From Streptomyces flavotricini (GTDB taxonomy: Bacteria > Actinomycetota > Actinomycetes > Streptomycetales > Streptomycetaceae): DNA of 64,000 bases. Shown here piece by piece: positions 3,517-29,451 of the stretch. The DNA lies in NCBI RefSeq assembly GCF_020639365.1, contig NZ_JAINUL010000001.1, positions 255,437-319,436 on the forward strand, in the 5' to 3' direction. Both the position numbers and the translations under genes were made by a program. Position 1 is the stretch's first letter, and each line of letters starts with the position of its first letter. Below the pieces are notes generated by a model that did no database searches, had not been told where the DNA came from, and worked only from the letters and a program-made list of their open reading frames with translations.

Positions 3517-4422
3517 TCACCCTCGGGGGGCTTCGAGATGTCGTACGAGTTCCTCGACGAACACCTCCAGGTGGGAGGGGAGTTCGCCCGTGCGAGTGGC
3601 GCAGAACCAGGTCCGGGTCAGCGGCTTCGCCCCGATCTGCACCAGGGCGAGGCCGTGCGAGGCCACGTACGGGGCGGCCACCCAGTTGGGCAGGACCGTC
3701 ACCCCTTGGCCGCCCGCCACCATCTCGACGACCAGGTCGGTCACCACGGGCATCGTGGCGATCCGGCCGGGCCGGGCTCCGGCGGGGATCGGCAGCGGCA
3801 ACGACGGGATGCGCTTCTGGTCGTAGAAGTCGTAGAGGACCAGGTCGACCCCGTCGAAGTCGCGGGCGGTCAGGTACTTGCGGCCGGCCCAGGCGTGCCC
3901 GGCAGGCACCACGGCCAGCATCTCGTCGTCGAAGAGCCGGGTCAGCGACACCCGGTCCATCTGCACGTCGGGTTTGGTGACGAGCGCGACGTCGACCAGG
4001 TCGGCGAGAAGCGCCGGGACCGGTGCGTCGTCGGCGACGGTCTCGATGCGCACGTCGATGCCCGGCTCCCGCTCGCGGAAGGCGCGCAGCACGGGCGGCA
4101 GCCACGGGAAGGTGGTGCTGCACTGCGCGGTGAAACGGACCCGCCGGTCGCGGCCCTCGCGGATTTCCCGGAGGTCGCGGGTGGCCGATTCCAGTTCGGC
4201 GAGGACGTGCCGGGCGGCCACGAGCAGCCGGCGGCCGGCGGCGTTCGGCACCAGCCGGCGGCCCTCGCGATCGAACACGGCCATGCCGAGGCGGGCTTCC
4301 AGCCGGGTCAGCCGCTGGCTGAGGGCCGGCTGACTGACGTAGAGCCGCTCGGCGGCGGCGGTCAGCGAGCCGGCTTCGGCCGTGGCGTCGAGGAGCTCCA
4401 GGTCACGCAGGTCCATGTCCAT
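3517..4422 (-). CDS. LysR family transcriptional regulator
   Basis: This 301-residue protein has an N-terminal winged HTH (residues about 4-63, LRDLELLDATAEAGSLTAAA followed by the typical SQPALSQRLTRLE recognition region) and a periplasmic-binding-protein-like effector domain. It is divergent from the SDR gene at 4541, the standard arrangement in which a LysR protein controls its neighbour. The start at 4422 is supported by the HTH lying at the usual distance; an alternative ATG is at 4416. The inverted CATAAC/GTTATG repeat between the genes is a candidate binding site. Confidence 0.9.
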   Translation of the reverse strand: MDMDLRDLELLDATAEAGSLTAAAERLYVSQPALSQRLTRLEARLGMAVFDREGRRLVPNAAGRRLLVAARHVLAELESATRDLREIREGRDRRVRFTAQCSTTFPWLPPVLRAFREREPGIDVRIETVADDAPVPALLADLVDVALVTKPDVQMDRVSLTRLFDDEMLAVVPAGHAWAGRKYLTARDFDGVDLVLYDFYDQKRIPSLPLPIPAGARPGRIATMPVVTDLVVEMVAGGQGVTVLPNWVAAPYVASHGLALVQIGAKPLTRTWFCATRTGELPSHLEVFVEELVRHLEAPRG

Positions 4423-5824: not shown

Positions 5825-6081
5825 TGGCCCCAAGGCAACCTGGCACGGAACGACATACCCCCACCGCGCGCTTCTCGCTCGGGGGACGCCCGGAGGGCAC
5901 TCGGACAGGCGCATCACCCGTGGCAGCCGCACGGGCACCCCGGACGACGCCGACCAGCTTGCGAGGACGTCGGGTGAGCCCGCTCCGGCCAGACCGCCGA
6001 CGACCGCAGGAGCAGCACTTCGCACACATGGCCCGGCGCGCACGGGGCACACGGTCGGCACCGATCGAAAGGAGCCCTTCC

Positions 6082-20666: not shown

Positions 20667-22820
20667 TCATCCGGCGCGGCCCGCTGCCTCCGGCCCTGGT
20701 TCGAGGGCGGCCAGGACCCGGTCGGGGGTCAGGGGCAGTTCCCGCAGCCGCCGGCCGGTGGCCTGGCACAGGGCGTTGCCGATCGCCGCGGCCGTGCCGA
20801 CGATGCCGATCTCCCCGATGCCCTTGCTGCCCATCGGGTTGAGGTGCTTGTCGTGCTCGTCGATCCAGTGGGCCTCGATGGCGGGCACGTCGGCGTTGGC
20901 CGGCACGTGGTAGGCGGCCAGGTCCCGTTCCGCGAAGTCGCCGAACGCCGGGTCGAGTCCGCTGTGCTCGGTGAGCGCCATGCCCAGCCCCATCACCATC
21001 CCCCCGATGAACTGGGAGCGGGCGGTGCGCGGGTTGAGGATGCGGCCGGCCGCGTAGACGCCGAGCAGCCTGCGGACGCGTACCTCGCCCGTGACGGTGT
21101 CGGCCTGGACCTCGGCGAAGTGTGCCCCGAACGCGTGGCGCGCGTACGGGGACTTCTGCTTCGCGGACTGGGTGGTGTCGGCGGAGGCGGAGAGCCCTGC
21201 GGCGGGCAGCGGCCCTTGGTGCCGGGCCAGCCGTTCCGTCAGCGCGGTGCACGCGTCGTGCACCGCCCAGCCCCAGGACGCCGTTCCCGTGGAGCCGCCG
21301 GCGACGGCCCCGGGCGGCAGCGCGCTGTTGCCGATGGCCAGCGAGACGGCGTCGAGCGGGACGTGCAGGGCGTCGGCGGCGATCTGGGCCAGGACCGTGC
21401 GCGCGCCGGTACCGATGTCGGTGGCGTTGACCTCGACCAGGTAGCTCCCGTCGGGGCGGGCATGGGCGCGGGCGCCCGAGGGGGCGATGTACACGGGGTA
21501 GGTGGCGGCGGCCACACCGGTGCCGATGAGGAGCGGACCCTCGCGCAGGGGCGGACGGCGCCCGGTCCAGCCGAACCGGCGTGCGCCGTCGCGCAGGCAC
21601 TCCACGAGGTGGCGCGTGCTGAACGGGCGTCCGCTGTCGGGCTCGGTGGGCGCGTCGTTGCGCACGCGCAGCTCGACGGGGTCCATGCCGAGGGCGTCGG
21701 CCAGCTCGTCCATGGCCGACTCCAGGGCGTACATGCCGGGGGTTTCACCGGGGGCGCGCATCCAGGAGGGGGTGGGCACATCGAGCGCGGTGACGCGGTG
21801 GGTGGTGCGGCTGTCCTGTACGGCGTACATCACCCGGGCCGGCACGGCGGCCTGTTCGACGAACTCGCGCACCTGCGAGGTGTGCGTGGTGACCTCGTGG
21901 ACGAGGGCGGTGAGGGTGCCGTCGGGGCGGGCGCCGAGCCGGATGTGGTGCAGGGTGGGCGCGCGGTGTCCGACGGTGGCGGCCATGTGCTGCCGGGGCA
22001 GGGACAGCGTGACGGGGCGTCCGCAGTACCGGGTGGCCATCACGGCGAGTACGACGTGGGGGCGCGGTGTGCCCTTGGAGCCGAATCCGCCGCCGACGTG
22101 CTCGGCGAGGACGGTGATCTGGTCCTGCGACAGCCGGAACAGCCCGGCCAGGACATTGCGCACCACCGTGGTGCCCTGGCAGGAGTCGTACACCGTGAGG
22201 TGGCCGCGTTCGGCGTCCCAGTCCGCGGTGGCGGCGTGCGGCTCCATGGCGTGGTTGTGCAGCGGCGGAACCGCGTAGCGGACGTCGACGCGTACGGGAG
22301 CGTCGGCGAACGCCGCGTCGGGGTCGCCCTGTTCACGGTGGGCGGGGTAGCCGCCGTTGACCTGCTCGGGGGTGTACAGGCCCGGGTGCCCTTCGTACAG
22401 GGCGACGTCGTGCGGCTCGCTCTCGTACGTGACGCGCACGGCGTCGGCGGCGGCCCTCGCCCCCTCCAGGGTGTCGGCGATGGCCAGTGCCACGTACCAG
22501 CCGCGGTGTGGCACCCGCGTGTCCTGCAGGAGTTGCAGGGTGGGGTCGTCGGAGGGGCCCAGGCGGGGAGCGTCGTAGGGGGTGAGGACGCCCAGGACGC
22601 CGGGCAGGGCCAGGGCGCCGGTGGTGTCGACGGCGGTGATCCGGCCGCGGGCGACGGTCGCGGGCACCGGCCAGGCGTAGGCCCGCAGGGGCAGGTGCTG
22701 TTCGGCGGCGTACCGGGCTGCGCCGGTCACCTTCTCCCGGCCCTCGCGCCGCGGGACGGAGGCGCCGAGAGCGGTGGTGGCGGTGGCGGTGGATGCGACG
22801 GTAGCGGTGGTCGGGCTCAT
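20667..22820 (-). CDS. Molybdenum hydroxylase, molybdopterin-binding subunit (PaoC/YagR-like)
   Basis: This 717-residue large subunit of a xanthine-oxidase-family enzyme carries the molybdenum cofactor. It starts near [20 protein letters not shown], has the [10 protein letters not shown] cofactor-contact loop, and ends with a region containing [15 protein letters not shown], where the Glu is the catalytic base in this family. It follows FeS and FAD subunits in the order S-M-L. The closest familiar architecture is periplasmic aldehyde oxidoreductase PaoABC, although no Tat signal is visible on the small subunit here. The substrate is probably an aldehyde, by inference. Confidence 0.88.
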
Positions 22821-22857
22821 CGTGGTCCTGTTCCTGTTCGGCGCGTCGGCGGCGCCG

Positions 22858-23868
22858 CTACGGCGTGGCGGGAGAACCGGGGTGCGTACCGGCCAGCTCG
22901 GCGATGGCGTCGCAGGCGAGGTTGCGGGCGAGCGGGATCTTGTACGCGTTGTCGCGCAGGGGCCTCGCCCGCGCGAGTTCGGCGTCGACGGCCGCGCGGA
23001 CGCTGTCGGGGCTCGGGACGGCGCCGGTGAGCCGGGCCTCGGCGGTGGTCGCGCGCCAGGGCCGGTGGGCCAGGCCACCGAAGGCGAGGGCCACCCGGCG
23101 CACCCGGCCTTCGTCGAGGTCGAGGACGACGGCGACCGAGGCGAGGGCGAAGGCGTACGAGGCGCGTTCGCGGGCCTTGCGGTAGAGGGAGAGGGACCCC
23201 GCCGCGGCGCCGGGCAGGATCACCGCCGTGATGATCTCGCCGGGGCGGATGACGGTGTCCTGCTCGGGCCGGTCCGCGGGCAGCCGGTGGAACTCGGCTG
23301 CCGCGACGGTACGGGTGGTGCCCGTCGCTCCGTACAGCTCGACTTCGGCGTCCAGGGCGGCGAGGGCCACGGCCATGTCCGAGGGGTGGGTGGCGATGCA
23401 GTGCTCGGAGTGTCCGAGTACCGCGTGGTCACGGTGGAGGCCGTCGCGGGCCCCGCAGCCGCTGCCGGGTTCGCGCTTGTTGCAGGGTTTGGAGAGGTCC
23501 TGGAAATAGCCGCAGCGGGTGCGCTGGAGCAGGTTGCCGCCGGTGGTGGCCACGTTCCGCAGTTGACCGGAGGCACCGGAGAGCAGCGCAAGGCTGAGGA
23601 GCGGGTAGCGGGTGCGCACCAAGGGGTCGGCGGCGAGGTCGCTGTTGCGGACCGTGGCGCCGACGCGCAGGCCGCCGTCGGGGAGTTCGCGGATCTCGTC
23701 CAGCGGCAGGCGGGAGACGTCGATGAGGGCGCCGGGGGTCTCGACGCCGAGTTTCATCAGGTCCACGAGGTTGGTGCCGCCGGCGAGGTAGCGGGAGCCG
23801 GGGTGGGCGGCGTAGGCGTCGGCCGCCGCTTGGAGGCTGGTGGCGCGCACGTAGCCGAAGGGCTTCAC
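22858..23868 (-). CDS. Molybdenum hydroxylase, FAD-binding subunit with extra FeS motif (PaoB/YagS-like)
   Basis: This 336-residue medium subunit has the FAD-binding loops YLAGGTNLVDLMKLG and NVATTGGNLLQRTRC. The stretch RTRCGYFQDLSKPCNKREPG and the following GC and HCIATHPSD match the additional 4Fe-4S cluster loop known in E. coli PaoB. The GTG start at 23868 overlaps the stop of the FeS subunit by four bases, showing coupled translation. It passes electrons from FeS centres to FAD in this enzyme class. Confidence 0.88.
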   Translation of the reverse strand: MKPFGYVRATSLQAAADAYAAHPGSRYLAGGTNLVDLMKLGVETPGALIDVSRLPLDEIRELPDGGLRVGATVRNSDLAADPLVRTRYPLLSLALLSGASGQLRNVATTGGNLLQRTRCGYFQDLSKPCNKREPGSGCGARDGLHRDHAVLGHSEHCIATHPSDMAVALAALDAEVELYGATGTTRTVAAAEFHRLPADRPEQDTVIRPGEIITAVILPGAAAGSLSLYRKARERASYAFALASVAVVLDLDEGRVRRVALAFGGLAHRPWRATTAEARLTGAVPSPDSVRAAVDAELARARPLRDNAYKIPLARNLACDAIAELAGTHPGSPATP

Positions 23869-24521
23869 GCGGTCACCTCCGCGCCGGTCGCGGTGGCCGC
23901 GGCGTCGGCTCCCGCTTCGGCGACGGCCCGGACGATCGCGGGGTAGGCGCCGCAGCGGCAGAGGTTCCCGCTGAGCCGTTCCCTGATCTCCTCGGCGGTC
24001 AGTACGGCGGGGCCGGGCGGGGCCGCGGCGGTGGCGGTGGCGGTGACGTGCGAGGGGTGGCCGGCGGCGGCTTCGCGGAGCGCACCGACCGCGGAGCAGA
24101 GCTGGCCGGGGGTGCAGTAGCCGCACTGGAAGGCGTCGTGTTCCATGAAGGCGCGCTGGAGCGGGTGCAGGACGCCGTCGGGGCCCGCCAGGCCCTCGAC
24201 GGTGGTGATGCCGCAGCCGTCGAGGGCCACGGTGAGGAGCAGGCAGCTGTTGGCGCGCCGGCCGTCCACCAGGACGGTACAGGCACCGCACTGGCCGTGG
24301 TCGCAGCCCTTCTTGGCGCCGGTCAGGTCCAGGTGCTCGCGCAGGGCGTCGAGCAGCGTGACCCGGTGGTCCAGGTCGAGGTCGTGGTGGACACCGTTGA
24401 CGCGGAGGGTCACACGGGAGCGGGCGGCCCCGGCGAGCGCGTCGTCCGGCGTGAGCGGCGCCGGGCCGGGGCTGCCGCCGGGAGCGGGTCGGCGGGCGGG
24501 CGGGTCGGTTGCGTGGGCCAC
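23865..24521 (-). CDS. Molybdenum hydroxylase, 2Fe-2S subunit (PaoA/YagT-like)
   Basis: This 218-residue small subunit has two 2Fe-2S clusters. The plant-type ferredoxin cluster uses Cys73, Cys78, Cys81 and Cys93 (CDHGQCGAC then SC). The second uses Cys133, Cys136, Cys188 and Cys190 (CGYC, CRCG). An Ala-rich insert sits near residues 158-172. The N-terminus is Pro-rich without a twin-arginine signal, unlike E. coli PaoA, which suggests a cytoplasmic enzyme. GTG start at 24521 with GGGAG upstream. First gene of the three-subunit operon; no maturation chaperone gene is adjacent. Confidence 0.9.
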   Translation of the reverse strand: MAHATDPPARRPAPGGSPGPAPLTPDDALAGAARSRVTLRVNGVHHDLDLDHRVTLLDALREHLDLTGAKKGCDHGQCGACTVLVDGRRANSCLLLTVALDGCGITTVEGLAGPDGVLHPLQRAFMEHDAFQCGYCTPGQLCSAVGALREAAAGHPSHVTATATAAAPPGPAVLTAEEIRERLSGNLCRCGAYPAIVRAVAEAGADAAATATGAEVTA

Positions 24522-25416: not shown

Positions 25417-25647
25417 TCAACTGGCGGCGAGTACGGAGTCGTCCAGCGGGCCCGTGCCCGGCAGGTGGTGGCGGGCGGCGATCAGCGCGGCGTGCACGTC
25501 CGTCGTACCCGTGGACACGCACAGGGCCCGCTCGACGTCCTCGATCTCCTTGCGGACGGGCGAGTCGCCTTCCGCGGCATCGATCACGGACAGCGCCCAA
25601 TAACGGTCGACGAGGCCGGTGAGCACGGCCGGGTGAGCCATCAACAT
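25417..25647 (-). CDS. DUF5133 domain protein
   Basis: This 76-residue protein matches the Streptomyces-restricted DUF5133 pattern: MLMAHPAVLTGLVDRYWALS, then a helix with EIEDVERALCVSTGTTDVHAA and a final LIAARHHLPG. Such proteins are present in many copies per genome, often beside regulators, but no function is established. It is soluble and mostly helical. It lies just downstream of the response regulator gene on the same strand. Confidence 0.75.
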   Translation of the reverse strand: MLMAHPAVLTGLVDRYWALSVIDAAEGDSPVRKEIEDVERALCVSTGTTDVHAALIAARHHLPGTGPLDDSVLAAS

Positions 25648-25737: not shown

Positions 25738-26166
25738 TCAGGCGCGGGGCGGGCGCGTCGCGGTGTCCAGGTAGAAGGAGTCGATGCTCTGGACGGCCTG
25801 CTCGAACTCGTCCAGATTGACGGGCTTCGTCACGTAGGCGTTGGCGTGGCTGGTGTAGGCGCCCGCGACGTCGTCGGGGGCGGAGGACGTGGTCAGGACG
25901 ACGACGGGGATGGTCTGGAGGTCGGCGTCGCTCTTCAGGATGCGGAGCAGATCGCGGCCGTTCATGCGGGGCATGTTCAGATCGAGCACGATGAGGTCGG
26001 GGCGCGGACTGTCGGGGTTGCGCAGGTGCTCCAGGGCGGCGACACCGTCGGTGGCCTGGACGAGGTTGCGAGCACCGCGCTCGGCGAGCGCCTCTTCGAT
26101 GAGCATGGCGTCGGCGACGTCGTCTTCCACGAGCAAGACGTCGAACGGGCGGGCGGGGGCGTTCAT
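25738..26166 (-). CDS. Rcp1-like single-domain response regulator
   Basis: This 142-residue CheY-like receiver has acidic residues in LLVEDDVADA, phosphoacceptor Asp62 in LIVLDLNMPRMNG, the Thr switch in VVVLTTSSAPDD and Lys in AYVTKPVN. The sequence type resembles Rcp1-like regulators that pair with phytochrome-related kinases. GGAG lies eight bases before this ATG, supporting an independent start. The frame is also open upstream into the HTH ORF. The likely partner is the divergent histidine kinase at 26654. Confidence 0.8.
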   Translation of the reverse strand: MNAPARPFDVLLVEDDVADAMLIEEALAERGARNLVQATDGVAALEHLRNPDSPRPDLIVLDLNMPRMNGRDLLRILKSDADLQTIPVVVLTTSSAPDDVAGAYTSHANAYVTKPVNLDEFEQAVQSIDSFYLDTATRPPRA

Positions 26167-26538
26167 CGTCAGTTGCTCCGTGGTTGCTTCGTCGGTGCGG
26201 TTGGTGCGGTCTGTGTGGTCGGTGTGGTTGAAGATCCCCGGCCAGCGGCGGCGGGCGCCCTGGCGGGTCATGCCGCATGCTCGGCCGATCTGGGGGTATC
26301 CGGCTCCGGCGCGCGCGGCATCCGCGGCCGCCGCGCGCTGCAGCCGTTCAGCGGCCTCGTGAAGGTGGTCCAGTACGTGCAGGAGTGCCAGGGCCCGCGC
26401 GCGCTCTTCCGCTGCCGGGTGGGAGAGGTCCTTCTGCAGCTGGAGGGCCAGGCGCCGGGCGAGGCCGGCGACAGCCGCATCGGCGACAGCGGCCGTCTCC
26501 TTCGGGGTGGTCCGGAGGTGGAAGTTCGTGCCGGGCAT
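25738..26538 (-). CDS. HTH protein ORF reading in frame into the response regulator
   Basis: From the ATG at 26538 (MPGTNFHLRTTPKETAAV) there is a roughly 105-residue helical protein ending in an HTH-like motif (YPQIGRACGMTRQGARRRW). No stop follows: after GIFNHTDHTDRTNRTDEATT, a Thr/Asp/Asn repeat, the frame continues directly into the receiver domain at 26166. This gives either a 266-residue HTH-receiver fusion or two proteins made from one frame. The DNA-binding role is inferred. Confidence 0.5.
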   Translation of the reverse strand: MPGTNFHLRTTPKETAAVADAAVAGLARRLALQLQKDLSHPAAEERARALALLHVLDHLHEAAERLQRAAAADAARAGAGYPQIGRACGMTRQGARRRWPGIFNHTDHTDRTNRTDEATTEQLTMNAPARPFDVLLVEDDVADAMLIEEALAERGARNLVQATDGVAALEHLRNPDSPRPDLIVLDLNMPRMNGRDLLRILKSDADLQTIPVVVLTTSSAPDDVAGAYTSHANAYVTKPVNLDEFEQAVQSIDSFYLDTATRPPRA

Positions 26539-26570
26539 ACCCCGCACCCTAGGCCCCCGACCCGACGAGT

Positions 26571-26586
26571 GACAACAACTGTTGTC
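26571..26586. promoter_or_regulatory. GACAACA-AC-TGTTGTC palindrome in the divergent promoter
   Basis: Seven-base arms separated by two bases form a dyad between the HTH/response-regulator start (26538) and the kinase start (26654). The HTH product of the adjacent gene is the obvious candidate to bind it and control both directions. Inferred from symmetry and position. Confidence 0.5.
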
Positions 26587-26653
26587 CAACGCCCTCTACA
26601 GTGTGCGCTGCGCACTCTGTTCAAGACGGCCGTCCCGGGAGGGGATTCGGAAC

Positions 26654-28261
26654 ATGACCGGCAAGACGAGGCCTCCGCACGCGCGGAGGTTTTCCGCGTG
26701 GACCACCCGGCGATGGCTCCGTGTCGGGGTCGCCGGATCGCTGGCGGTGCTGGCCGTGCTCGGTGTGACCGGGACGTGGGTGCTGGGGCGTACGGCTACG
26801 ATCAGCGACGAGCTCGTGGACGTACGGTCTCCCGCGCTGTCCACGGCGTTCCGCCTGGAATCGGCCCTCCTCAACCAGGAGACGGGCATCCGCGGCTACG
26901 GCCTCACGGGGACCCCGGAGTTCCTGGAGCCCTACCAGCGGGGTCTCACGGACCAGCACACGTACGCCGCGCAGCTCACGCACTTGCTGGACGGCGACGC
27001 CCGCGCGCTCAGCGACCTCGAGACCGTCCAGGACACGCTCTCCCGGTGGCAGGAAAGGATCGCCCGCCCCGTCGCCGCTTCACCACCCGGGGCGCCCTCG
27101 CCCCTGGCCACCGAACGCGCCGCCGAGGCCAAGGCCGCGTTCGACACCCTGCGCCAGGCCATGTCCGGCCAGCAGGAACGGTTGCGCGCGGAGCGGAACC
27201 GGACCCGAGCCGACCTCGCCGCCACCGTGAGGGTGCGGAACTGGGTGTTCGCGGCGATCGCGGCCTTGATCGTCCTCATGGCCGGCCTCGTATTCGAAGG
27301 ACTGCGCCGCGGCATCACCCGGCCGCTGGAACAGCTGGGGGCGGACGCCCGCACCGTCGCCGGCGGCGACTTCGGCCATCCCATCGAGTCGGCCGGTCCG
27401 GCGGACCTGCGGCGTCTCAGCGGCGAGATCGACTTCATGCGCCGTCAGCTGGTGCGCGAGCTGGCCTTCAGCGAGGAAGCCCGGCGGCGCCTGGACGCGC
27501 AGACCGCCGAGCTTCAGCGGTCCAACGCCGAGCTGGAGCAGTTCGCGTACGTCGCCTCCCACGACCTGCAGGAACCGCTGCGCAAGGTCTCCAGCTTCAC
27601 GCAGCTTCTCCAGCGGCGCTACGGAGGACAGCTCGACGCCAAGGCGGACCAGTACATCGGCATCGCGGTCGACGGCGCCAACCGTATGCAGACCCTCATC
27701 AACGACCTCCTCGACTTCTCCCGGGTGGGCCGTGTCCACCACGATCCCGAAAAGGTCGACTTCGACACGGTCTTGGAACGGACCTTGGCCTCACTGAGCG
27801 TCGGCATCGAGGAGGCGGGCGCGTCGATCACGCACGATCCGCTGCCGGCCCTCGTCGCCGATCCCACGCAGATCGGCATGCTCTGGCAGAACCTGATCGG
27901 CAACGCGGTCAAGTTCCGCCGCCCCGACCGGGCACCGGAGATCCGTGTCACTGCTGCCCGGGAAGGGGAGCTGTGGCGGTTCACGGTGACCGACAACGGG
28001 ATCGGCATCGCTCCCGAGTACGCCGAGAAGGTGTTCGTGATCTTCCAGCGGCTCCACACCAAGGACGTCTATCCCGGAAGCGGAATCGGCCTGGCGATGT
28101 GCAAGAAGATCGTCGAGTTCCACGGCGGCACCATCGCCGTCGACCCGGAATACCGGGACGGGACGCGCATCAGCTTCACCCTCGCCTCCGACCCTCCCCC
28201 GGCGCCGTCCTCGTCGACCATCGCGGAAGCGACCCGGGCCACCCCGGAGCCGGCGCCATGA
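26654..28261 (+). CDS. CHASE3-like sensor histidine kinase
   Basis: This 535-residue membrane kinase has one membrane helix (about residues 24-44), an extracytoplasmic helical CHASE3-like sensor (about 50-195, TGIRGYGLTGTPEFLEPY), a second helix (198-217), HAMP, coiled coil, then HisKA with His303 in FAYVASHDLQEPLR. The HATPase domain has VTDNGIGIAPEYAEKVF and GSGIGLAMCKKIVEFHGG. The H-box type resembles phytochrome-like kinases. Its stop overlaps the next start as ATGA. It is predicted to phosphorylate the neighbouring receivers. Confidence 0.9.
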   Translation: MTGKTRPPHARRFSAWTTRRWLRVGVAGSLAVLAVLGVTGTWVLGRTATISDELVDVRSPALSTAFRLESALLNQETGIRGYGLTGTPEFLEPYQRGLTDQHTYAAQLTHLLDGDARALSDLETVQDTLSRWQERIARPVAASPPGAPSPLATERAAEAKAAFDTLRQAMSGQQERLRAERNRTRADLAATVRVRNWVFAAIAALIVLMAGLVFEGLRRGITRPLEQLGADARTVAGGDFGHPIESAGPADLRRLSGEIDFMRRQLVRELAFSEEARRRLDAQTAELQRSNAELEQFAYVASHDLQEPLRKVSSFTQLLQRRYGGQLDAKADQYIGIAVDGANRMQTLINDLLDFSRVGRVHHDPEKVDFDTVLERTLASLSVGIEEAGASITHDPLPALVADPTQIGMLWQNLIGNAVKFRRPDRAPEIRVTAAREGELWRFTVTDNGIGIAPEYAEKVFVIFQRLHTKDVYPGSGIGLAMCKKIVEFHGGTIAVDPEYRDGTRISFTLASDPPPAPSSSTIAEATRATPEPAP

Positions 28262-29451
28262 CCTCGACCATCCCCCACATCGGCGGCATCGCCACGAACG
28301 AACCGGTTTACCGCATCCTCCTCATAGAGGACGACGCGGCCGACGCCCTGCTCGTCGAGGAACTCCTCCACGACACCGAGCTCCGCTTCGAGCTCACCAC
28401 GAGCACCTCGCTGGCCGAAGCCCGCTCGGAACTCGCGGGCCGCGCCGTCGACTGCATCCTCCTCGACCTCCACCTGCCCGACGTGTCGGGCACCGAGGCG
28501 GTCGCCACCGTCCGCGCCATGGCCCCGCACACCGCGGTGATCGTCCTGACCGGCCTGTCGGAGAAGCAGGCGGGCTCCGAGGCCATGGCCGCCGGCGCCC
28601 AGGACTACCTCGTCAAGGGCAAGGTCGAAGCGGATCTGCTGCGCCGCACGGTCCGCTACGCCGTCTACCGGAGCCACGCCGAACGCGCGGCGGCCGAGGC
28701 CCAGTCGGCCCGGCAGCGCGCGGAGGAGAACGCCCGCCTGGAACGTGGACTGCTGCCCCGGCCCCTGCTCGAAACCTCCACCGTCAAGGTGACCACCCGC
28801 TACCTGCCCGGCGCAGAACAAGCCCTCCTCGGAGGTGACTTCCTCGACGTCGTCGAGGGTGACGAAGGGCTGCTGCACGCCGTCGTCGGTGACGTCAGCG
28901 GACACGGTCCCGACGCCGCCGCCCTCGGCGTCTGCCTGCGCATCGCCTGGCGCTCGCTCGTCCTGGCCGGCCACCACGGCACCGAACTGCTGCACCTCAT
29001 GGAACGCCTGCTGGTGGCGGAGCGCGGCACCCAGCCCCTCTTCGCCACCTGCACCCTCCTGACCCTCGACCAGAAGGCCTCCACGGCGACCCTCTACCTG
29101 GCGGGCCACCACGAACCCCTGCTCACCACCTCGGAGGAGACCGTGGAGGTGCCCGCCGAGCACGGCATCGCGCTCGGCATAGTCCCCGGTCACGGCGACT
29201 GGCCCGCCACGGTCGTCCCCCTTCCGGACGCCGGAGCGCTCACGCTCTACACCGACGGGCTCACGGAAGGACACAACGGTGACGCCGGCGGCCGGCTCGG
29301 CATCGAGGGGCTCCTGCCCCTGATCAACACCACACCTTCCCATGACCCCGCGGCGCACCTGGACAGCCTCATCCGCCAGACCAGAGCGCTCAACGCCGGA
29401 AGACACACCGACGACCTCGCCGTACTCCGTCTCGGCTGGGGTTTCCGCTGA
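28258..29451 (+). CDS. Fused response regulator / PP2C-type (SpoIIE, RsbU) serine phosphatase
   Basis: This 397-residue protein has an N-terminal receiver (RILLIEDDAADALLVEELL, phosphoacceptor in CILLDLHLPD, YLVKGK), a linker coiled coil (about 140-165), and a PP2C domain with metal-binding motifs GGDFLDVVEGD, VVGDVSGHGPDAAALG, LYTDGLTEG and HTDDLAVLRLG. Such proteins dephosphorylate anti-sigma-factor antagonists. It is translationally coupled to the kinase gene, so the kinase probably controls phosphatase activity through the receiver. No anti-sigma or antagonist gene lies in this window. Confidence 0.9.
   Translation: MTSTIPHIGGIATNEPVYRILLIEDDAADALLVEELLHDTELRFELTTSTSLAEARSELAGRAVDCILLDLHLPDVSGTEAVATVRAMAPHTAVIVLTGLSEKQAGSEAMAAGAQDYLVKGKVEADLLRRTVRYAVYRSHAERAAAEAQSARQRAEENARLERGLLPRPLLETSTVKVTTRYLPGAEQALLGGDFLDVVEGDEGLLHAVVGDVSGHGPDAAALGVCLRIAWRSLVLAGHHGTELLHLMERLLVAERGTQPLFATCTLLTLDQKASTATLYLAGHHEPLLTTSEETVEVPAEHGIALGIVPGHGDWPATVVPLPDAGALTLYTDGLTEGHNGDAGGRLGIEGLLPLINTTPSHDPAAHLDSLIRQTRALNAGRHTDDLAVLRLGWGFR

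Follow-up and report, generated by a model that had tools for sequence, protein, structure and literature searches.

The window analysed here, a stretch of 64,000 nt from the 8.86 Mb genome of Streptomyces flavotricini, contains on the minus strand a single open frame (25738..26538) in which an HTH part is followed by a response regulator receiver. The frame begins with the ATG at 26538, ends with the stop codon at 25740-25738 and encodes 266 aa; no internal stop is present in the translation, as had been stated in the first-pass annotation of this DNA. Upstream of 26538 it is still open as far as a TTG at 26589; the alignments of the relatives begin at the ATG at 26538 (MPG...) and not further upstream.

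The HTH part corresponds to residues 1-101 (26236..26538, minus strand). In the AlphaFold model it consists of two long helices (residues 12-35 and 43-76) and an HTH pair (81-87/92-98), with a mean pLDDT of 85.4. The linker IFNHTDHTDRTNRTDEATTEQLT (26167..26235, minus strand) is modelled mostly with low confidence, with pLDDT below 50 at residues 107-125, and is probably disordered. The receiver begins at Met125, encoded by an internal ATG (26166-26164), and initiation at this codon would yield a free, Rcp1-like receiver of 142 aa (25738..26166, minus strand). A Shine-Dalgarno (SD) sequence, GGAG within the codons ACG GAG (26176..26179, minus strand), is located 9 nt before this ATG, in agreement with the earlier statement that the receiver has a ribosome site of its own.

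The receiver is recognized as Response_reg by Pfam (E 2.1e-22, residues 134-250) and shows the residues of an Rcp1-like receiver, namely the acidic pair D139/D140, the acceptor D186, T216 and K238. Its best phmmer matches among PDB entries include 5te9, Rcp1 (1i3c) and RcpA (1k68). The phytochrome response regulators Rcp1 and RcpA were deposited as receivers of 140-149 residues, whereas the receiver described here is also encoded as the C-terminal part of an HTH protein. In the OmpR and NarL families the receiver is N-terminal and the DNA-binding domain C-terminal, and an HTH ahead of a receiver is less usual than the opposite order. The window protein departs from the canonical order, with the HTH at residues 81-98 and the receiver at residues 134-250.

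A candidate -10 element, TAGGGT (26546..26551, minus strand), was read by eye from a CCTA..GT block in the promoter alignment of the closest relatives (type A, see below). Since it is separated from the HTH ATG by only 7 nt, it suggests a leaderless or near-leaderless start of the HTH frame. A consensus promoter scanner predicted no promoter at the locus.

Divergently to the fusion frame, a CHASE3-HAMP-HisKA-HATPase histidine kinase of 535 aa (26654..28261, plus strand) and a receiver-SpoIIE (PP2C) phosphatase of 397 aa (28258..29451, plus strand) are encoded according to Pfam, the two genes overlapping by ATGA. This pair resembles the RsfS-RsfR module of Mycobacterium smegmatis, in which a CHASE3 kinase is encoded beside a receiver-PP2C phosphatase, and a further receiver protein, MSMEG_6128, carries an HTH (PMC10950880). 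Thus, both systems combine the kinase, the phosphatase and an HTH-bearing receiver protein. They differ in that the receiver of MSMEG_6128 is at the N terminus, and in that the available part of that account describes no fused-or-free gene. Directly downstream of the receiver lies a small DUF5133 gene (25417-25647, minus strand). It probably does not belong to the module, because tblastn detected it at only one of 69 named HTH loci. Near the module, frames resembling by eye a molybdenum hydroxylase set (large, FAD and iron-sulphur subunits) are located at 20667-24521 on the minus strand.

Fused and separate relatives

Relatives were collected by searches of 61 genomes, 392 genomes and named genomes; most of the named ones are Streptomyces, the rest including Kitasatospora and Actinacidiphila. 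Among 100 classified loci with adjacent HTH and receiver, which include duplicates and the window itself, the two parts are in frame in 61, in another frame in 28 and in the same frame with a stop in 11. Removal of identical rows and of the double of the window (L009) left 89 loci. In the 392 genomes of the genus of the window strain, an HTH profile gave 54 places with at least 100 bits in 52 genomes, and the next matches were at 75 bits. At 37 of these places the HTH is fused in frame to the receiver (24 of type A, 12 of type B and one similar to L058) and at 17 the genes are separate; the places were counted by hand and the calls made partly by signature, which missed L031, L034, L035 and L037 (classed from the earlier locus classification) and scored L038 as fused since only its last part was read. 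The check for stops in relatives, proposed together with the first annotation, thus gave a mixed answer, with many separate genes and a majority of fusions.

In the receiver tree, from which the clades were assigned by hand, the window falls within a clade of 42 rows (type A; support 100/99), 40 of which are in frame; S. griseus (L078) is one of the carriers of this type. In the two exceptions, L072 and L038, the HTH is broken, and L072 has changed frame as well; the fusion can therefore be lost. A second in-frame type (type B, 12 rows) has a distinct, VFTARPASRPLP-like linker. Eleven of its rows form a weakly supported cluster (49/95), and L081, which lies outside on the receiver tree, was assigned to type B by its linker despite this position. 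The other 35 rows (group C) have separate genes, apart from L058. The layout may have changed repeatedly from one state, separate or fused, to the other, probably by loss or gain of a stop between coupled genes. No plasmid record covers 80% of the fusion; among the best 30 of 732 records, the matches lie from residue 120 onwards, on the receiver side.

The kinase is divergent in 68 of the 69 named HTH loci. The phosphatase is divergent in 56 of them, some loci ending at contig ends, and it is found at 22 of 24 loci in type A, 31 of 33 in group C and 3 of 12 in type B. Because of its scarcity in type B, the phosphatase may be dispensable for the core of the module.

The linker of the window contains a 9-nt tandem repeat (4.2 copies; 26191..26228, minus strand), by which it is 27 nt longer than in the relatives, with the frame kept. 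The first-pass annotation regarded this Thr/Asp/Asn repeat as the element joining the two parts. It is real, but it is private to the window strain among the in-frame type-A rows, the 27-nt insertion being absent from the other 39 of 40. We therefore rejected the repeat as a conserved linker and regard it as a private expansion in a linker of otherwise near-constant length.

The conservation of frame was followed by the distance from the end of the HTH to the receiver core. In type A, 39 rows with intact HTH and measurable linker were included (L072, which would count as a frame change, and L038 were excluded; L052 and L038 have no measurable linker). They showed three length changes and no frame change over a tree length of 3.37, and a single length was found in 36 of the 39. 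Type B showed three length changes and no frame change over 3.99 (12 rows). In an extended type-B set with a different tree, four length changes and no frame change occurred over 8.73; of its 26 rows, 24 remained, because the signature missed L066 and an identical row had been merged. In group C, 23 length changes and at least seven frame changes were counted over 5.93. With the rate of group C, one would expect 8.7 frame changes in types A and B by the first measure, and the Poisson probability of observing none is 1.7e-4. This comparison is rough, given that all counts are minimum values and the groups are not alike in other respects.

At the level of protein sequence, the type-B linker has a Phe in 12 of 12 rows and, also in 12 of 12, an Arg encoded by five different codons. 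In type A, pN/pS amounts to 0.40 in the HTH, 0.69 in the SD-containing linker and 0.22 in the receiver; in type B (19 pairs only) the values are 0.56, 0.57 and 0.37, respectively. A simulation that considered only stops gave a probability of 0.04-0.63 for a type-A linker with no stop, so that openness by chance remains compatible with the data. Because stop codons alone prove little, the argument for the fusion rests on the conservation of frame and ribosome site.

These data bear on the possibility that only the free receiver matters, with translation of the HTH serving as coupling or local repression and the fusion as a tolerated by-product. In its favour, all 89 loci have an SD and a start ahead of the receiver, whatever the frame relation of the two parts; the separate genes at 17 of the 54 places and the outcome of the simulation point the same way. 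Against this, intact fused rows change the length of their linker but never its frame, and the type-B linker is conserved as protein while its codons change synonymously. We consider this explanation unlikely, though it deserves to be kept in mind. The preferred reading, in which a fusion is made along with the free receiver, has to accommodate these unfused places, the 2 of 42 type-A rows with broken HTH and the pN/pS of the type-A linker, which indicates weaker constraint than in the HTH or the receiver.

A palindrome linked to the HTH

Alignment of the type-A promoter regions first exposed the palindrome GACAAC-N4-GTTGTC. In the window it corresponds to the predicted operator GACAACAACTGTTGTC (26571..26586), located in the region of the divergent promoters, with 32 nt separating it from the HTH ATG. 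An inverted repeat beside it (26599-26619) proved to be conserved in part only when the type-A alignment was inspected by eye. The palindrome is present approximately 47 nt ahead of the HTH start in 88 of the 89 loci (81 exact, seven with one mismatch), and the only locus lacking it is L072, in which half of the HTH is also gone. At the 54 places in the 392 genomes it is exact in 52 and has one mismatch in two, the latter two having been scored via the identical named rows L085 and L058.

The genome of the window strain contains a single exact palindrome, the one at the locus, and sites with up to one mismatch number four (the exact one included) vs six for a reversed control; a wider regulon was thus not detected in this genome. 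Since there is one exact site and the near-matches do not exceed the control, the operator appears local to the locus. By hand count, exact sites occur in 98 of the 392 genomes, namely in 51 of the 52 with the HTH vs 47 of the 340 others (Fisher 2.7e-35). The G344 genome has its exact site on a different contig, and the copy next to its HTH carries one mismatch. The reversed control pattern was found in 39 of the 392 genomes, again counted by hand, and the 47 site-bearing genomes without strong HTH match are at about this level. In three of the 47 (G174, G195 and G399) a weaker HTH match lies no more than approximately 170 nt from the site. In G174, two adjoining exact palindromes (contig 452, 10192-10223) are located shortly before a more distant HTH relative. 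The sequence GACAACGACCGTTGTC recurs in many HTH-less genomes, often near contig ends, as if it were part of a repeated or conserved element, and explains part of the background sites.

Ten receiver loci have no adjacent HTH. Six of them lack the site (best 3-5 mismatches, with the search at L106 covering 257 nt only) and four have it. Among those with the site, L113 and L114 are in genomes that contain another, fused copy with its own site, and L071 appears to be an HTH deletion. At L101 an HTH with its own palindrome is located about 2 kb away (5930-6013, reverse). Here the receiver promoter also retains a site, 142 nt before the receiver, and the relocated HTH looks frame-disrupted. In the genomes of the site-less loci L103, L107, L110 and L111, HTH matches are weak or absent; the genome of L106 has a different HTH protein (L127), and that of L118 is the genome of L113, which contains a fused copy. 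At L072 (receiver at 4165), loss of the initial half of the HTH coincides with loss of the palindrome, while the receiver and its ribosome site remain. The palindrome thus travels with the HTH, being kept, lost and moved with it, and is a predicted operator.

What kind of HTH would read this site? Pfam and NCBIfam gave no convincing family match for the HTH part, with only a sub-threshold HTH_23 match in Pfam, and Foldseek and VIA-align gave no clear fold match (best Z 4.4). A search of the PDB with the HTH profile retrieved RelI (9sdc; E 2e-4) as the sole chain below E 0.1. RelI, an HTH protein from actinomycetes, is described as partly similar to ClpC2 and as forming a coiled-coil dimer that ends in two short helices (PMC13284704). 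It is an antitoxin without a receiver, whereas the window protein is encoded next to two-component genes.

Similarity to ClpC2 was also detected directly. In a three-locus search ClpC2 homologues resembled the HTH with E 8e-8 to 2e-6, at 32-42% identity over 43-60 aa for three of them; by sequence, the HTH segment is of the ClpC2/RelI type. The loci L128, L129, L131 and L133, which are weak HTH matches, carry G[AT]CAAC-N5-GTTG[AT]C palindromes paired at distances of 28-29 nt. Some of their half-sites are identical to those of the window operator. At L128, L131 and L133, ClpC2-like frames align to the HTH, and Clp_N repeats were found in L128, the one homologue tested. Pfam detected no Clp_N in the window protein, which is accordingly not a ClpC2 itself. 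A second HTH protein of approximately 220 aa with a similar RQAARKRWP motif exists at L011 and L127; no Pfam family was found for it (L011 tested), and no such palindrome is present in the sequence examined there.

In mycobacteria, ClpC2 was reported to repress its own promoter via CGTCAAC-n5-GTTGACG, and its transcript is described as probably leaderless (Taylor et al. 2023, PMC10030653). ClpC2 thus shares with the window locus a related HTH segment and a palindrome with a CAAC...GTTG core just before its own start. It differs in having Clp_N repeats and no receiver, and its operator, GTCAAC-N5-GTTGAC, is often repeated. Because the HTH segment and the operator core are the shared parts, the comparison argues that the HTH segment reads DNA in both proteins. 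Since the palindrome-bearing weak matches include three ClpC2-like frames, the two may also overlap in specificity.

Alternatively, the palindrome could be read by another regulator or be a promoter element, the HTH binding elsewhere. It may overlap a -35 region, binding by the HTH is a prediction from sequence, and Taylor et al. 2023 (PMC10030653) assign the DNA contacts of ClpC2 to its C-terminal part, i.e. outside its HTH segment. Against this, the palindrome shares its conservation, loss and relocation with the HTH, and related palindromes are found beside ClpC2 homologues. We judge this alternative to be quite improbable and retain the palindrome as the predicted operator of the HTH.

A probable internal start of the receiver

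In all 52 in-frame loci of types A and B, the receiver start is preceded at proper distance by an SD (GGAG or AGGA), compared to 30 of 513 other in-frame ATG, GTG or TTG codons (5.8%). In type A, the SD is read as NNG GAG in 40 of 40 in-frame loci. Where the first codon encodes Thr, it is ACG in 34 of 34 cases, vs 25% of the 885 Thr codons in those frames. In type B, the SD sits in a different codon frame, and an SD and an ATG or GTG are found 7-8 nt apart in 24 of 24 rows; here the rare Arg codon AGG is used in 7 of 12 rows, vs 4.3% of the Arg codons there. As related rows are not independent, these counts are not to be read as probabilities. Nevertheless, without initiation it would be difficult to account for the same SD signal persisting in two different codon frames.

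This codon choice, together with the difference between the receiver starts and the control codons, speaks against the assumption that the long fusion is the sole product, with a decoy SD and ATG inside it. In its favour one can say that the free product is a prediction from sequence and that internal Met codons are not rare, but we find it highly improbable. That a recent point mutation or a sequencing error joined two ordinary genes in the window strain, which the first-pass annotation named as a refuting case and which the separate-gene relatives could bring to mind, is virtually excluded by the 40 in-frame rows in the clade of the window.

The gene thus has a conserved internal ribosome site and an in-frame start, as expected for a dual-start gene. 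Judging from the relatives, the data suggest that the two-protein layout is kept by selection. Because the frame and the internal ribosome site are both kept in the two fused types, the locus is best read as yielding an HTH-receiver fusion along with a free receiver. The dual-product arrangement suggested earlier is therefore supported at the level of sequence evolution, without the repeat as its joiner.

Proposed mechanism

Based on these observations, we think it probable that the locus encodes, in one frame with two starts, an autoregulated HTH-receiver protein fed by the divergent kinase and, as a further output, a free receiver. Translation from the first ATG (26538) would give the HTH-receiver protein and translation from the internal SD and ATG (26166) the receiver alone, and we infer that both products are made. 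A dimer of the HTH would occupy GACAAC-N4-GTTGTC in the divergent promoter region and regulate its own gene, most likely by repression, and perhaps also the kinase operon. The divergent CHASE3 kinase, a likely phosphate donor of the receiver, would phosphorylate it, so that the grip of the fusion on DNA would respond to the signal. The free receiver could be a second target of the kinase, or a competitor for phosphate and contacts. Where HTH and receiver are encoded by separate genes, their products presumably cooperate, as would be in line with the fusions elsewhere.

It is tempting to go one step further and to speculate that the locus is a self-contained switch, composed of an autorepressing fusion and a free receiver whose ratio is set by a near-leaderless vs an SD-dependent start. 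The free receiver would then drain phosphate or block the receiver contacts of the fusion, and the promoter would read the ratio of long to short product together with the signal. This extension is possible but doubtful.

Dual starts are known from CheA, among others. A closer parallel is AerR of Rhodobacter capsulatus, for which long and short isoforms with opposite effects and an internal start with a ribosome site are described (PMC6199135). AerR shares with the gene described here the single frame, the internal start with ribosome site and the two isoforms; it differs in that it is not a two-component protein, its internal start is CTG, and the extra part of the long isoform has 41 aa and not the size of a whole HTH protein.

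The kind of receiver is ordinary, and dual starts as well as RsfS/RsfR-like kinases and phosphatases are already known. What is different here is the inverted domain order, the HTH of the ClpC2/RelI type and the conserved second start in the same frame. In the open-access literature, no title or beginning of an abstract was found that describes such a gene, a search scope which does not show that it is unpublished.

The finding is of interest for two reasons. First, an operator is proposed for a group of HTH proteins that has no convincing match in Pfam or NCBIfam, and the group is linked to ClpC2; this link suggests which part of ClpC2 reads DNA. Second, the relatives form a natural series of separate, coupled and fused genes with one regulator and one predicted operator, and therefore the value of fusing an output domain while keeping a free receiver is directly testable.
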